From Allobranchiibius sp. CTAmp26 (GTDB lineage: Bacteria > Actinomycetota > Actinomycetes > Actinomycetales > Dermatophilaceae), in assembly GCF_017565405.1 (NCBI RefSeq), contig NZ_JAGEKR010000006.1:1-64000 (forward strand): 64,000 bases of DNA, read 5' to 3'. Both the position numbers and the translations under genes were made by a program. Below are positions 2,222 through 18,737 of the stretch, piece after piece. The notes beneath the pieces are model-generated. The model was not told where the DNA came from. It did not search any database and saw nothing but the letters and a program-made list of their open reading frames with translations. Every line of letters starts with the position of its first letter. Within the stretch, counting starts at the first letter, position 1.

Positions 2222-3259
2222 ATGCCGAGTGCTCTGCGTGACCTCTACCCCGGCCTTGTCTGCGACCTCGACGGGGTGGTCTACCGAGGTGCCGATGCGG
2301 TGCCGTACGCCGTCGAGGAGCTCTCCGCGGTGGCGTCGGCGTCTCCTGGCGGCGTGGTGTACGCCACCAACAACGCCTCCCGCCCACCTGAACAGGTCGC
2401 CGAGCAGCTTCGGTCGCTGGGCCTGTCGGTGAACGGCGAGCACGTGGTCAACAGTTCGGTGGCGGGGGCGCAGGTGCTGGCGGGGCGTCTCGCCGCCGGG
2501 GCCTCCGTCTTGGCAGTGGGAGGAATGGGCGTCGCCGACGCCCTGCGCGGTGCGGGGCTGAGCCCGGTGAGCCCGCCGGAGGCCGCGGCGTCCTCCCGGT
2601 CCGTGGATGCCGTACTGCAGGGGTACGGCCCCGACGTCCGGGCGAGCGATCTCGCGGAGGTCGCGTACGCCGTCCAGTCCGGTGCCGTCTGGGTGGTCAC
2701 CAACGCCGACCGGACCCTGCCGACCGACCGGGGGATCGCGCCGGGCAACGGGTCGCTGGTCGGCGCCGTGCGCGTCGCAGTCGATGTCGACCCCGAGGTG
2801 GTCGGCAAGCCGGGTCCGTTGATGTACGAGCTCGCCGCGGAGCGGCTCGGCACCGACCCGGCACACACGCTCGGCATCGGCGACCGGTTGGAGACCGACA
2901 TCGCTGGTGCGCATGCGGCCGGAATGGATGCCTTGCTGGTGTTCACCGGCGTGCACGGGGTCGCCGACGTGGTTGCTGCCGATCCGCATCTGCGCCCTCG
3001 CTACGTGGCCGGTGACCTGCGAGCGCTGGGTGAGCCGTACGACGAACCGGCGGCCGACGGCCCGGGCTGGCGGGTGGGCGATCTGCTCGGGGTGCTGGAG
3101 TCGTCCGCGCAACCGGCCGTGCGGTTCCGGGGTCGGGAGAGTGGTGCTGAACTCGGGCAGGACGGGTTGCGCATCGCGCTGCGTGTCCTGTGGTCGGCCG
3201 TGGACGACGGTCGGATCTCCACCCAGGCGGCAGTGTCGGCGACCTCGCGCTGGCAGTAG
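2222..3259 (+). CDS. HAD-superfamily sugar/glycerol-phosphate phosphatase (Rv1692-like)
   Basis: The product (345 aa) is a NagD/PGP-type HAD hydrolase. Motif I is DLDGVVY at residues 15-21 (Asp15 nucleophile, Asp17 acid/base). Motif II is near residue 49 in ATNNASR. The motif III Lys lies in VGKPGP (about 195-200), and motif IV is GIGDRLETDI (about 218-227). About 90 residues follow the core, as in mycobacterial Rv1692, a glycerol-3-phosphate phosphatase of glycerophospholipid recycling with an extra C-terminal domain. The substrate here is inferred from that synteny. ATG 2222 follows the SSB-like gene by 9 nt. Confidence 0.85.
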   Translation: MPSALRDLYPGLVCDLDGVVYRGADAVPYAVEELSAVASASPGGVVYATNNASRPPEQVAEQLRSLGLSVNGEHVVNSSVAGAQVLAGRLAAGASVLAVGGMGVADALRGAGLSPVSPPEAAASSRSVDAVLQGYGPDVRASDLAEVAYAVQSGAVWVVTNADRTLPTDRGIAPGNGSLVGAVRVAVDVDPEVVGKPGPLMYELAAERLGTDPAHTLGIGDRLETDIAGAHAAGMDALLVFTGVHGVADVVAADPHLRPRYVAGDLRALGEPYDEPAADGPGWRVGDLLGVLESSAQPAVRFRGRESGAELGQDGLRIALRVLWSAVDDGRISTQAAVSATSRWQ

Positions 3260-5779: not shown

Positions 5780-6693
5780 GTCGCCGCATCGTCCTGATCG
5801 GTCATCCGCGCCGGGCCGAGGCGCTGGACATCGCCTGCAAACTGGTCCGCGACCTGGCGGCCGCCGACGTCGAGGTGACCGGACCGGCCGATGAACTCGA
5901 GGCGTTCGGGGTGCTCCACGAACCCAACGTGTCGGTGGCCGACTGCCGTGAGTCGATGGATGGGGCGGAACTCGCCGTCGTGCTCGGTGGGGACGGCACG
6001 ATCCTGCGCGCCGCCGAACTCGTGCGGGACATCGGGGTGCCGCTCCTCGGGATCAACCTCGGTCACGTCGGATTCCTCGCCGAGGCGGACCGCGACGACA
6101 TCCATCGGACGGTGCGCAAGATCGTCGAGCGGTCGTGGAGCGTCGAGGAGCGGATGACCCTCGAGGTCGAGGTGAGCGTCGAGGGCCGCGTCGTGTGGAC
6201 GAGCTGGGCCCTCAACGAGGCATCGGTCGAGAAGCGGTCTCGCGAGCGGATGCTCGAGCTGGTGCTGGAGATCGACGACCGCCCGCTGTCGACCTGGGGC
6301 GCCGACGGCATCGTGATGGCCACACCGACCGGCTCCACGGCGTACGCGTTCTCCGCCGGCGGACCCGTTGTCTGGCCGGGTGTCGACGCGCTGCTGCTGG
6401 TGCCCATCTCCGCGCACGCGCTCTTCGCGCGGCCGCTGGTCCTGGACCACAACTCCCGCGTCGGGATCGAGATGCTGGACCGCACGGGAGCCCAAGCCGT
6501 CGTCTGGTGCGACGGGCGCCGTTCGTTCGACATCCCGTCGTCGGCCCGCATCGACGTACGCCGCAGCGGGCGTCCGGTGCGCCTCGCGCGGCTGTCCACG
6601 GCGCCGTTCACCGACCGGCTCGTTGCGAAGTTCGACCTGTCCGTGTCCGGGTGGCGCGGCATGGGCCCCGCGCCGGGCCCCTCCGAGGCCTGA
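5776..6693 (+). CDS. nadK: NAD kinase
   Basis: The product (305 aa) phosphorylates NAD to NADP in the cytoplasm. The diagnostic GGDGT motif is at residues 71-75. It is followed by PLLGINLGHVGFLAE and later by TPTGSTAYAFSAGGPV, both conserved in the NAD/diacylglycerol kinase fold. The GTG start overlaps the tlyA stop (GTGA), and the gene's own TGA shares a base with the recN ATG (TGATG). The tlyA-nadK-recN order is conserved in actinobacteria and in Bacillus. Confidence 0.96.
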   Translation: MSRRIVLIGHPRRAEALDIACKLVRDLAAADVEVTGPADELEAFGVLHEPNVSVADCRESMDGAELAVVLGGDGTILRAAELVRDIGVPLLGINLGHVGFLAEADRDDIHRTVRKIVERSWSVEERMTLEVEVSVEGRVVWTSWALNEASVEKRSRERMLELVLEIDDRPLSTWGADGIVMATPTGSTAYAFSAGGPVVWPGVDALLLVPISAHALFARPLVLDHNSRVGIEMLDRTGAQAVVWCDGRRSFDIPSSARIDVRRSGRPVRLARLSTAPFTDRLVAKFDLSVSGWRGMGPAPGPSEA

Positions 6694-10802: not shown

Positions 10803-11954
10803 ATGAGCCGCACCCCGTCGTCCCGCAGTGCGGTCGCACCCTTCCAGGTGATGCAGCTGGTGCGCGCCGCGGCGGCCCGGCAGCGCAGTCACGGTGACGC
10901 GATCCTGCTCTGCGTCGGACAACCGTCGACACCGGCGCCGCGCGTAGTGGTGGACGCGGTGCACGATGCGATCGACACCCAGGTGCTCGGCTACACCGAG
11001 TCCGACGGGATCCCGGTGCTGCGCGCCGCCGTCGCCGAGCACTACCAGACGGCGTACGGCCTGGCGGTCACCCCGCAGGACGTCCTGGTGACCAATGGGT
11101 CGTCGGGCGGTTTCAGCACGCTGCTGCTGGCGGCGTTCGAGCCGGGTGCGCGGATCGCGATGACCCGGCCCGGCTACCCGGCGTACCGCAACACGGTGCA
11201 GGCGCTCGGATGCGTGCCGGTCGACCTGGTCTGCGGACCGGAGACCAGGTTCCAGCCGACCGTCGAGCTGCTCGAGGCGCTCCCGCAGCGCCCGGACGGA
11301 GTCATCCTCGCGAGCCCGGCGAACCCCACCGGCACGATCATCGATGCCCGCGAGCTGGAGCGGATCGCGCACTGGTGCGAAGCGAACGACGTGCTGCTGA
11401 TCTCCGACGAGATCTACCACGGCATCTCCTACGGGCGCGAGTGCGCGAGCGCGTGGGAGTTCTCGGGGGCCGGCGCGGTGATGGGATCGGTCAGCAAGTA
11501 CCACTCGATGACCGGCTGGCGACTGGGTTGGGCATTGCTGCCGCCGGAGTTGCGTACGTCGGTCGACCGGCTCCAGGGCAACCTCGCCATCTGTGCTCCC
11601 GCCGTGTCCCAGGTCGGGGCGGTGGCGGCGTTCTCCGCAGGCGCCCAGCACGAACTGCGGTCGCACGTCGAGCGATACGCGCGTAACCGCGATGTCCTGC
11701 TGGGCCGGCTGCCGGAACTCGGGATCACGTCGTTCGCGCCGCCGGACGGGGCGTTCTACGCGTACTGCGACATCGGTCACCTCACCACCGACTCCCTGAC
11801 GTGGTGCCACGACGTCCTCGCGCGCACCGGGGTGGCGCTGGCGCCGGGCATCGACTTCGACCCGATCGACGGGCACCACTACATGCGGTTGTCCTTCTGT
11901 GGTGACACCGCCGATCTGAACGAGGCGCTGGACCGGCTGGCGGCGGTCTGCTGA
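10803..11954 (+). CDS. PLP-dependent class I/II aminotransferase
   Basis: The product (383 aa) is a fold-type I aminotransferase. The PLP-Lys is in GSVSKYHSMTGWRLGW (Lys near residue 231). Other conserved points are ASPANPTGTIID (substrate/PLP contacts), LLISDEIYHGISY (Asp-x-x-Tyr) and the C-terminal MRLSFCGD (carboxylate-binding Arg). The substrate cannot be told from sequence; alanine/aspartate-type or valine-pyruvate-type are possible. ATG 10803 starts 16 nt after the Nudix stop. This gene replaces xerD, found at this position in mycobacteria. A 48-bp palindromic repeat begins 15 nt after its stop. Confidence 0.85.
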   Translation: MSRTPSSRSAVAPFQVMQLVRAAAARQRSHGDAILLCVGQPSTPAPRVVVDAVHDAIDTQVLGYTESDGIPVLRAAVAEHYQTAYGLAVTPQDVLVTNGSSGGFSTLLLAAFEPGARIAMTRPGYPAYRNTVQALGCVPVDLVCGPETRFQPTVELLEALPQRPDGVILASPANPTGTIIDARELERIAHWCEANDVLLISDEIYHGISYGRECASAWEFSGAGAVMGSVSKYHSMTGWRLGWALLPPELRTSVDRLQGNLAICAPAVSQVGAVAAFSAGAQHELRSHVERYARNRDVLLGRLPELGITSFAPPDGAFYAYCDIGHLTTDSLTWCHDVLARTGVALAPGIDFDPIDGHHYMRLSFCGDTADLNEALDRLAAVC

Positions 11955-11969
11955 CCGCGCGCCCCGCTC

Positions 11970-12017
11970 GGTTGTCCGCAGTTTCGCGCAGACGGTGTCA
12001 CGAATCTGCGGACACTC
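11970..12017 (+). repeat. 48-bp palindromic repeat family 1, copy A
   Basis: It starts GGTTGTCCGC and ends CACGAATCTGCGGACACTC. The geometry is 19-nt arms around a 10-nt loop. It aligns without gaps to copies B, C and D. It sits between the aminotransferase stop and the DUF1304 promoter and could also act as a terminator. Its right arm is less symmetrical than in copies B and C. Confidence 0.85.
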
Positions 12018-12025
12018 GGCACCGC

Positions 12026-12031
12026 TAGATT
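12026..12031 (+). promoter_or_regulatory. -10 element of a leaderless DUF1304 transcript
   Basis: TAGATT is separated from the GTG at 12038 by exactly 6 nt (GCCGGT), and there is no Shine-Dalgarno sequence. This is the spacing expected when transcription starts at the first base of the start codon. The upstream -35 region would overlap the right arm of repeat copy A. Confidence 0.5.
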
Positions 12032-12037
12032 GCCGGT

Positions 12038-12418
12038 GTGGTCTCTCTCGCATACGTGCTGCTCGGCCTGGCCGCGGTCGTGCACGTGTGCATCTTCTGG
12101 CTCGAGTCCTTCGCCTGGACGGCGTCGCGCACCCGCGCCGCGTTCGGCACCAGCCCCGAGGAGGCGGAGGTCACGCGGGCCCTCGCGTACAACCAGGGGT
12201 TCTACAACCTGTTCCTCGCGGTGGTGGTCGCCGCGGCGATCGTGCTCCGGATCGCAGGCCACACCCAGGGATCGGTCGCACTGGCGATCGCCGGCGCCGG
12301 GTCGATGGTCGCCGCCGCCGTGGTCCTCGCCACCAGCGACCACTCCAAGCTGCGCGCCGCCGCCATCCAGGGTGCCGCGCCGGCGCTGGGCCTGATCGCG
12401 CTGGCGTTCACCGGCTAA
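12038..12418 (+). CDS. DUF1304 family small membrane protein
   Basis: The product (126 aa) has four hydrophobic segments. The first is SLAYVLLGLAAVVHVCIFWL (about 3-22). The second is the LFLAVVVAAAIVLRI region. The last two are the Ala-rich helices near 85-100 and 108-124. The sequence RALAYNQGFYNLFLA is typical of DUF1304 integral membrane proteins, whose function is unknown. The GTG start is probably the transcript start (leaderless). The gene is bracketed by repeat copies A and B. Confidence 0.82.
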   Translation: MVSLAYVLLGLAAVVHVCIFWLESFAWTASRTRAAFGTSPEEAEVTRALAYNQGFYNLFLAVVVAAAIVLRIAGHTQGSVALAIAGAGSMVAAAVVLATSDHSKLRAAAIQGAAPALGLIALAFTG

Positions 12419-12440
12419 GCGTCCCCGCCGGTCGTACGTC

Positions 12441-12488
12441 GGTTGTCCGCGCTTTCGTGTCGACGCCGTCACGAATCTGCGGACAACC
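12441..12488 (+). repeat. 48-bp palindromic repeat family 1, copy B
   Basis: This is the best palindrome of the family: outer arms GGTTGTCCGC and GCGGACAACC, inner arms TTCGTG and CACGAA, loop TCGACGCCGT. It lies between the stop of DUF1304 and the stop of the convergent small gene on the minus strand, so it may also work as a bidirectional terminator. Confidence 0.9.
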
Positions 12489-12492
12489 ACCG

Positions 12493-12948
12493 TCAGGAGT
12501 CGAGCAGCTGCCCCACCGGGGCGACCTGCTCCGAGGTCTCGGGGCAGCACCACACCATGTCGTCCTCGACCATGCGGGCATCGAGCGGGTGAGTGCGCGG
12601 ATGCGCGGGGCAGGGTGGCCAGTTGCTCCGCCCGGACGAAGCACCGGCTTCCTGGATGTGCGCCTCCACCGCAGTGGTGGTGGCCCACAACCGCGAGGGC
12701 CAGTCGATGTCCTCAGGATGAATCCACAGCCCGATGCTGCTCCCGCTCGAGTCCCGTAGCCACCATCCGTTGATCTCCGGGAGGTCCTCGGTCGTCGTGG
12801 ACCCGGGCAGGAGGCGCAGGCCGAGGTCGGTCCAGAGGGAAGACCCGATGTCGCGCAGGACAGCGAACTCGGGCGGCAGGTCCGCCGGCAGGTCAGGAGG
12901 TCGGTTGTCCGCACTTCCGTGTCGACGTCGTCGCGATCTTGCGGACAA
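12493..12948 (-). CDS. Hypothetical protein, start unclear (overlaps a repeat)
   Basis: The product is up to 151 aa. Notable stretches are ADLPPEFAVLRDIGSSLW, GLRLLPGSTTTEDLPEINGW, and the C-terminal NWPPCPAHPRTHPLDARMVEDD followed by VWCCPE, where two Cys-containing motifs look like a degenerate metal site. I do not recognise the family. The only in-frame start near the 5' end is TTG 12948, which lies inside repeat copy C, so the first 15-16 codons come from repeat DNA and no Shine-Dalgarno sequence is visible. It follows argG on the same strand 15 nt after its stop and could be co-transcribed with it. Confidence 0.6.
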   Translation of the reverse strand: MSARSRRRRHGSADNRPPDLPADLPPEFAVLRDIGSSLWTDLGLRLLPGSTTTEDLPEINGWWLRDSSGSSIGLWIHPEDIDWPSRLWATTTAVEAHIQEAGASSGRSNWPPCPAHPRTHPLDARMVEDDMVWCCPETSEQVAPVGQLLDS

Positions 12949-12950
12949 CC
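12903..12950 (+). repeat. 48-bp palindromic repeat family 1, copy C
   Basis: Its outer arms GGTTGTCCGC and GCGGACAACC are identical to those of copy B. The centre has diverged (ACTTCCGTG, loop TCGACGTCGT, then CGCGATCTT). It lies between the argG stop and the body of the small downstream gene, and it overlaps that gene's only candidate start codon. It starts 462 bp after copy B. Confidence 0.9.
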
Positions 12951-12963
12951 GATCGGCTTGCTG

Positions 12964-14388
<1,425 letters not shown>

Positions 14389-15390: not shown

Positions 15391-15756
15391 ATGTCCGACC
15401 CCTGCCCATGCGGCTCCGGCCTGCCGTACGACGACTGCTGCGGCCCCCTCCTCGCCACCACCCGGCTCGCCCGCACCGCGCTCGAACTGATGCGGTCGCG
15501 CTACACGGCGTACTACTACGGGAACGCCGAACACCTCTGGCGCACGTGGCATCCCGCAACCCGACCGGTCGAGGTCACCCTCGATCGCGAGGTCACGTGG
15601 ACGGGTCTGCGGATCCTCGAGGTGGTCGACGGCGAGGCCGAGGACAGCACCGGTGTCGTGGGGTTCGTCGCGTCGTACGACGGGGGGTCGTTGCGCGAGC
15701 GCAGCAGCTTCGAGCGGCGCGGCGGCCGGTGGCTCTACCGGGGCGAGCACTCCTGA
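15391..15756 (+). CDS. YchJ-like SEC-C motif protein (UPF0225)
   Basis: The product (121 aa) starts MSDPCPCGSGLPYDDCC, a CxC(x)nCC zinc-binding SEC-C motif. It continues with SRYTAYYYGNAEHLWRTWHP and ends with SSFERRGGRWLYRGEH, the conserved YchJ/UPF0225 pattern (NTF2-like fold). The biochemical function is not known. The start ATG coincides with the predicted transcription start. Repeat copy D begins on the last two bases of its stop codon. Confidence 0.88.
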   Translation: MSDPCPCGSGLPYDDCCGPLLATTRLARTALELMRSRYTAYYYGNAEHLWRTWHPATRPVEVTLDREVTWTGLRILEVVDGEAEDSTGVVGFVASYDGGSLRERSSFERRGGRWLYRGEHS

Positions 15757-15802
15757 TCGTCAGCGGATTCGTGGCGTCGGCGCCACCAGAACGCTGACAA
15801 TC
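15755..15802 (-). repeat. 48-bp palindromic repeat family 1, copy D (inverted)
   Basis: Read on the minus strand it starts GATTGTCAGC and contains CACGAATCCGCTGACGATC. It aligns over all 48 positions, without gaps, to copies A-C, sharing the block CACGAATC and the 19-10-19 geometry. It is the most divergent copy and lies about 2.8 kb from the A-C cluster in opposite orientation, between the ychJ-like gene and aspS. Confidence 0.75.
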
Positions 15803-15849
15803 GGGGCCCGCGCGACGGATACCGGGATGCCGCACGTCCAGCGCTTCCG

Positions 15850-17894: not shown

Positions 17895-18737
17895 TCAGGT
17901 CGCGGGGAAGCGGGCCGCGCCGAGCTGCCGGGACTGGGCGACCAGCGCGCCGGTGCTGTCCCAGACCGTGCAGTCCTCGTTGAAGAGGCCGCCCGCGACG
18001 TGGTCGGTGTGGGTGCGCACCTGCAGCCAGCCGGGTGCCGGCCGGGCGCGCACGTACCCGGTGAACTCGATCGTCGGCGCCCAGCCCTGACTGCCCAGGT
18101 CGAAGACGACCGGCGGGAAGGCGTCCAGCGCCAGCAGCAGCGACAGCGCGTCGGGAGCGCGGTCGTCCTGCAGCCGCATCCAGCCCCGCAGCTCGCCCTT
18201 TCCGCTCGGAGCGCCGACCGCCCACCCGATCGTGGCCGGGTCCAGGCGCAGATCGAGCCGTTGCAGCAGCCCCGACTGCGACAAGCTGGGCGGCGCGTCC
18301 TTGGCGCTCATGCACTCCGCGAGGGGAGGAATCGTCGGTGGGGCGACGGTCTTGCGGGGCGCTTCGTCGTACCGGCCGAGATCGCCCAGGGTCAGGAGCG
18401 CGCGGAAGCGCTCGACGTCGACACCGTCGACGGGCTGGGTCACCACCACCTGCGCGGTGCTCATCGAGCGCCCCGTACGCAGGATCGTCGGACGGGCTCG
18501 CACCGGACCGGGCGAACTGGGCGAGAGAAAGATCCCACTGAAGCTCAGGGTGTCGGCGTGTCCGCCCGCGCGCTGTGACGCGTCACCGGTGGCGCGGGCG
18601 GACAACGCCATCAGCAGCCCGCCGTTGACCGCCTCGCCGATACCCCACTCGTGCGTGAGTACGCCGACGTACGCGCCGCTGTCGTCGGGCCCGGTGGTCG
18701 CGATGGCATCGTCGAACTCGCTCATGGTGGCCATCAT
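17895..18737 (-). CDS. Thioesterase-family (acyl-CoA thioesterase-like) protein
   Basis: The product (up to 280 aa) fits the double-hotdog TesB-like thioesterase pattern: [16 protein letters not shown] near the N-terminus, then [16 protein letters not shown], a linker, and the second hotdog with [38 protein letters not shown] and AQSRQLG. It probably hydrolyses acyl-CoA in the cytoplasm; chain specificity is unknown. ATG 18737 has a GAGG-containing stretch upstream; ATG 18734 and 18725 are alternatives. It is divergent from rarA across a 75-bp gap and convergent with aspS. Confidence 0.8.

Follow-up and report, generated by a model that had tools for sequence, protein, structure and literature searches.

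The closest described systems are the REP, BIME and REPIN elements of E. coli and Pseudomonas, which are palindromes of 20-40 bp with 5-13-bp stems, dispersed in many copies through extragenic DNA, divided into subfamilies and partly arranged as tandem doublets. From mycobacteria, the MIRUs are known as actinobacterial intergenic repeats near stop codons with tandem copy-number variation, and TRIT is reportedly a sequence-conserved terminator motif of Mycobacterium tuberculosis, said to come from the RNIE work of Gardner in 2011. The TRIT hairpin was predicted downstream of actinobacterial genes (PMC3526491). A share of the E. coli REPs lies 1-20 nt past ORFs, and those at distances under 16 nt lower translation (PMC12306157). 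Gyrase is bound by E. coli BIMEs (PMC2817692), and E. coli REPs are reported to act in 3'-end protection, Rho-assisted termination and ribosome slowing (PMC12306157, PMC2817692, PMC3733652). Some REP families, e.g. CGTC, have no transposase association (PMC3733652); Actinobacteria are unmentioned in the main text of that study.

The repeats described here resemble REP, BIME and REPIN elements in being extragenic palindromes that are scattered in many copies, fall into subfamilies and form tandem doublets. However, they are 50 bp long with stems of about 20 bp, have no RAYT and are present in far fewer copies. With the GTAG and CGTC REP superfamilies (PMC3733652) they share short palindromes and subfamilies separated by complementary stem changes, whereas the tetranucleotide tag of those elements was not noted. 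The likeness to TRIT, an actinobacterial hairpin past genes, is one of description and not of sequence, and the U-tract is missing from the repeat. By description, the intergenic stop-codon setting is also shared with MIRUs, but those are not palindromic hairpins of such size. As in integron cassettes, one gene is followed by one palindromic site; in contrast to them, attC core ends are missing, the genes lie in both orientations and the sites are scattered beside housekeeping genes. The repeats probably represent a REP-like family without RAYT that is restricted to one lineage and consists of repetitive extragenic palindromes of about 50 bp, which would serve as hairpins at mRNA 3' ends and in addition as a recombination seam. 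It would be an actinobacterial REP-like family that has neither the usual tag nor the usual transposase and that underwent its expansion in a single young lineage.

Repeats and genes at the locus

The window, i.e. the whole analysed stretch of 64,000 nucleotides, belongs to a genome of 3.7 Mb (G000), which was compared with a sister species (G002), a third congener (G001) and a genome of another genus (G006). The sequence-only reading had described three 48-bp palindromes with shared arms, regularly spaced around two small genes. The palindromes are real: copies A, B and C were found where they had been placed (Table 1) and form a gapless alignment, with their starts spaced by 471 and 462 bp. 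All three match the pattern TTGTCCGC-N20..36-GCGGACA, for which shuffling of the window gives an expectation of 0.02 occurrences. The copies are imperfect palindromes of 50 bp each; the 48-bp palindrome is there, but the element is longer when the CG/CG edges are counted. Both exact 10-bp arms are present in copies B and C, which are 86% identical, whereas copy A has the arms GGTTGTCCGC / GCGGACACTC and differs in the latter. The intervals were given correctly, but they result from two small genes of similar size and not from a periodicity of the repeat; the true periodicity, 63-64 bp, occurs in tandem copies at other sites.

Table 1. Coordinates of the repeats and genes in the window
Feature	Position	Strand	Remarks
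Aminotransferase	10803..11954	+	PF00155; conserved left neighbour
Repeat copy A	11969..12018	+	subfamily I; 62.5 bits, E 2e-12; 14 bp past aminotransferase stop
DUF1304 membrane-protein gene	12038..12418	+	PF06993; between copies A and B
Repeat copy B	12440..12489	+	subfamily I; 21 bp past DUF1304 stop
Small ORF	12493..12948	-	between copies B and C; 151 aa from putative TTG start inside copy C
Repeat copy C	12902..12951	+	subfamily I; 12 bp past argG stop
argG, argininosuccinate synthase	12964..14382	-	conserved right neighbour, convergent
Fourth copy	15756..15803	+	subfamily II, TGATCGTCAGC...GCTGACAATCG

The gene in the A-B interval had been named as DUF1304, which was borne out by its PF06993 match (E 5.5e-29); the nearest named sequences are those of Knoellia, Janibacter and Flexivirga. 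The gene of the second interval had been called unrecognised, and it gave no Pfam match. This small ORF, the 3' end of which is also adjoined by copy B, had no detected counterpart in the other genomes of the bacterial family that were searched, and distant homologues turned up in four genomes which belong to other families of the order. Near its 5' end (window 12900-12948), the sole ATG/GTG/TTG start is the TTG inside copy C. The start of a similar gene in the genome G036 suggests a CTG start near LPADLPPEF, and therefore the small ORF may be a truncated gene or one with an unusual start codon.

The fourth copy is situated at the stop codon of a gene ending at 15756; the sister species has this copy and G001 is without it. 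In the Rfam 15 search of the window at gathering thresholds, only 5S rRNA was detected and the repeat had no match. A strong palindrome, TTGTCCGCCCGCGC...GCGCGGGCGGACA, with the arm letters of the family and a different interior, was observed upstream of a gene at window 18559-18605.

Genome-wide family and its range

A covariance model built from 20 copies and searched against G000 gave 99 matches, counted over both strands, which correspond to roughly 55 places. The repeat is thus not confined to the locus, and the earlier suggestion of a REP-like family was sustained: it is genome-wide, extragenic and palindromic, with subfamilies and short tandem arrays. The arms of subfamilies I and II are TGTCCGC/GCGGACA and TGTCAGC/GCTGACA, respectively, with the bases swapped in step. 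Subfamily I reads CGGTTGTCCGCANTTTCGTG-CNGACGGGTG-CACGAAANTGCGGACAACCG with the variant arms CGAGTGTCCGC, subfamily II reads CGGTTGTCAGCGGATTCGTGGCG-CCGGCGCCACGAATCCGCTGACAACCG, and 10 of 92 copies were mixed or unclear. The half-arms of the repeat are TGTCCGCANTTTCGTG and TGTCAGCGGATTCGTG.

With the exact-arm pattern TGTCMGC-N26..30-GCKGACA, 64 and 47 copies were counted in G000 and G002, 14 in G006 and one convincing copy in G001, and 0-2 matches were found in each of 114 other genomes of the order. The sole copy of G001 is situated in the gyrB-gyrA gap, where G000 has a matching copy. The G006 copies form a cousin family: the outer arms are shared, the inside differs, and there are long 63-bp tandem arrays. 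The subfamily I consensus had no match in the GTDB r220 contigs and IMG/VR, collections from which near relatives are possibly left out. The palindrome CGAGCGGCGGACATC of G001 was considered as the counterpart family of that species and was rejected, as only a few copies were present.

In G006, the long tandem arrays of a 63-bp unit that includes the palindrome of the cousin family follow gene ends at L129 5741-6100 and L127 around 5900-6300. Another palindromic repeat of G006, GTAGTAGAGGAATCC...GGATTCCCCTACTAC, is unrelated to it and occurs after argG in at least two copies (L155 about 2920-3120). The reversed control pattern ACAGKCG-N26..30-CGMCTGT gave 45 matches in G085, a genome of the bacterial family, which suggests that this genome carries its own unrelated palindromic repeat family.

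Both flanks of 47 G000 sites were found in the sister species, and a copy was detected there at 36 of them. Of the remaining 11 sites, those inspected mostly had a degenerate copy or fewer tandem copies; two, C23:121825 and C23:131432, differ by a gene insertion. The subfamily can differ between the sister species at one site, e.g. C8:285174 and C11:32952. In the orthologous gaps of G001 that were compared, the repeat is missing except at gyrB-gyrA. Since the copies occupy the same places in both sister species, they are old and now static. The expansion of the family would date to an ancestor shared by G000 and G002, later than the divergence of G001 (unless G001 lost nearly all of its copies) and earlier than the separation of the two sister species.

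Hairpin and position relative to genes

The mean MFE of the hairpins was about -29 kcal/mol. Over 98 unique copies, 167 double changes which keep the pairing were counted vs 94 +/- 10 in shuffles that ignore the relatedness of the copies. Arm position 5, which separates the subfamilies, forms an A-T pair in 55 copies and a C-G pair in 39, and in 4 copies it is unpaired. Among 26 orthologous pairs of G000 and G002 copies, 23 double changes were detected vs 9.3 expected, and 11 of them keep the pairing; gene conversion could contribute to the paired changes. The copies keep their self-complementarity while the inner stem varies. The near-invariance of the outer arms suggests a sequence recognition beyond the hairpin alone, but it was by these arms that the copies were found. 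No U-tract follows the hairpin: the T content of the next 10 nt is 14% vs 16% in intergenic DNA. A classical intrinsic terminator, TRIT included, would fit the hairpin near the stop codon, but it was rejected due to the missing U-tract.

The position was determined for 92 copies from G000 and G002 with gene ends from a home-made codon-usage gene caller. In total, 63 copies (68%) start at most 25 bp downstream of a stop codon, compared with 17% of random intergenic placements, which is a much tighter arrangement than that of the E. coli REPs of PMC12306157. The proportion of copies between convergent genes was 35% vs 14% at random, and the distances to start codons look random. The neighbours include the housekeeping genes gyrB, parC, clpB, uvrA, gcvP, rho, valS and rpsD, some of these names being read from Pfam domains; beyond housekeeping, the neighbouring genes have no functional theme. 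Copies adjoin the 3' ends of gyrB, parE and parC (G000 C10:42418, C4:254725 and C4:260388), and the sole G001 copy is at C2:475305. This placement, noticed post hoc, may be more than coincidence given the gyrase binding of E. coli BIMEs.

As RNA, each copy would fold into a strong hairpin without a U-tract at the 3' end of the mRNA. By analogy with the E. coli REPs, the hairpin may protect the 3' end and, in addition, aid Rho-dependent termination or slow the ribosome at the stop codon. These roles fit the stop-codon placement, the paired changes and the missing U-tract, and a REP-like element which would act as RNA at message 3' ends is the favoured interpretation.

Joint gain or loss of genes and repeats

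Across the three related genomes, the number of genes rises step by step along with the number of repeats. G001 has the aminotransferase directly next to argG, with 0 genes and 0 such repeats between them and an unrelated palindrome in their place. The G002 locus has 1 gene and 2 repeats, arranged around DUF1304, and the G000 locus has 2 genes and 3 repeats. One repeat, the counterpart of copy B, is present in G002 where G000 has copy B, the small ORF and copy C, i.e. the ORF and copy C are missing together. Neither G001 nor G002 has both genes without the repeats. Because the small ORF was not found in the other searched genomes of the bacterial family, its gain in G000 is a more parsimonious explanation than repeated loss.

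At three further loci, two repeats of one sister species correspond to one in the other, and two of these loci differ by a gene. At C4:260388, G000 has one repeat and G002 a mycothiol-S-transferase-like gene with an extra repeat. Opposite the one repeat pair of G000 at C5:51114, another gene, which we take to be DUF2785-like, and an extra repeat pair were found in G002. At C8:73735, the two copies of G000 are 234 bp apart, and G002 has one. Gene-plus-repeat differences in G002 lie at 2120723-2121365 and 2868462-2869330. A flavin monooxygenase gene flanked by two repeats lies between parE and dinB in G000; in G001, parE and dinB are adjacent and the monooxygenase gene is at another place. Against a general rule, however, indels also occur without repeats: they were detected in 13 of 166 spaced gaps that are free of the repeat and in 8 of 48 that bear it. 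With an odds ratio of 2.35 and p = 0.095, the enrichment of gene indels at the repeats is suggestive and not significant.

Due to the shared sequence, neighbouring or incoming copies could recombine or slip. As repeated DNA gives seams for recombination or slippage, a gene between two repeats would be gained or lost with exactly one repeat, which would produce the 0/0, 1/2, 2/3 series. Recombination between repeats is a simpler account than the movement of cassettes. With 86% identity, a recent RecA recombination between copies B and C would be weak, and therefore the event would be old or have proceeded via slippage. The manner in which REP-like elements spread without RAYT, and a possible role of the repeats in guiding gene gain and loss, become testable within one genus.

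The idea of small gene cassettes spreading with their bordering repeats was upheld in part: the sister species is without one gene-plus-repeat unit and G001 without both genes and the repeats, but the copies are stationary and the indels only weakly enriched. In its integron-like or Xer-like form, recombination would take place at the repeat, and a gene would move as one unit with its repeat. The stepwise series, the two G002 differences given by coordinates above and the differently placed monooxygenase gene argue for it. Against it, the element ends read GGTTGTC...GACAACC and not as attC-type ends (RYYYAAC...GTTRRRY), many copies lie behind housekeeping genes (gyrB, rho, valS, rpsD, clpB), the sites are static, the genes lie in both orientations and the indel enrichment is not significant; we consider such cassettes very unlikely. 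The case for a true cassette system is confined to its architecture. It is just as doubtful that a recombinase or transposase recognising the repeats puts a single gene and one repeat behind a resident stop codon, in a cassette system unlike integrons which would have built both the series and the parE-dinB insertion. The alternative of MITE-like elements, mobilised in trans by a transposase and tolerated or preferred near gene 3' ends, is rather unlikely. It is consistent with the burst of copies in one lineage, the G001 gaps without repeats and the cousin family of G006. However, a MITE of 50 bp would be very short, no transposase was present among 36 neighbouring proteins scanned, and no single-element insertion sites with target duplications were found between G000 and G002: a clean empty site is missing from G002, and the empty sites of G001 are too diverged for the junctions to be read.

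A classical REP system driven by RAYT (TnpA_REP) would explain the extragenic palindromes, the two subfamilies and the BIME-like tandem pairs at 63-64 bp. The REP-associated tyrosine transposase which had been proposed as a candidate was sought with Y1_Tnp (PF01797), with a positive E. coli control; there was no match in G000, G001 or G002, nor in any further genome of the bacterial family that was searched. Also, no conserved GTAG/CGTC tetranucleotide beside the CG...CG edges was seen by eye in the aligned copies, and this origin is extremely unlikely. A binding site on DNA for a regulator, nucleoid protein or topoisomerase, instead of an RNA element, would account for the invariant outer arms. 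The copies behind gyrB, parE and parC, the gyrB-gyrA position of the only G001 copy and the binding of gyrase by BIMEs (PMC2817692) point in the same direction. The copies are nevertheless tied to stop codons and not to promoters, and the gyrase link is post hoc, which makes a protein site quite unlikely. The REP-like hairpin with a recombination seam is preferred.

At the G000 site C23:121825, most of the repeat is replaced in the sister species by a three-gene insertion (G002 C1:3240997-3243771), beside which the half arm GTGCGGACAACCG and a different palindrome remain.
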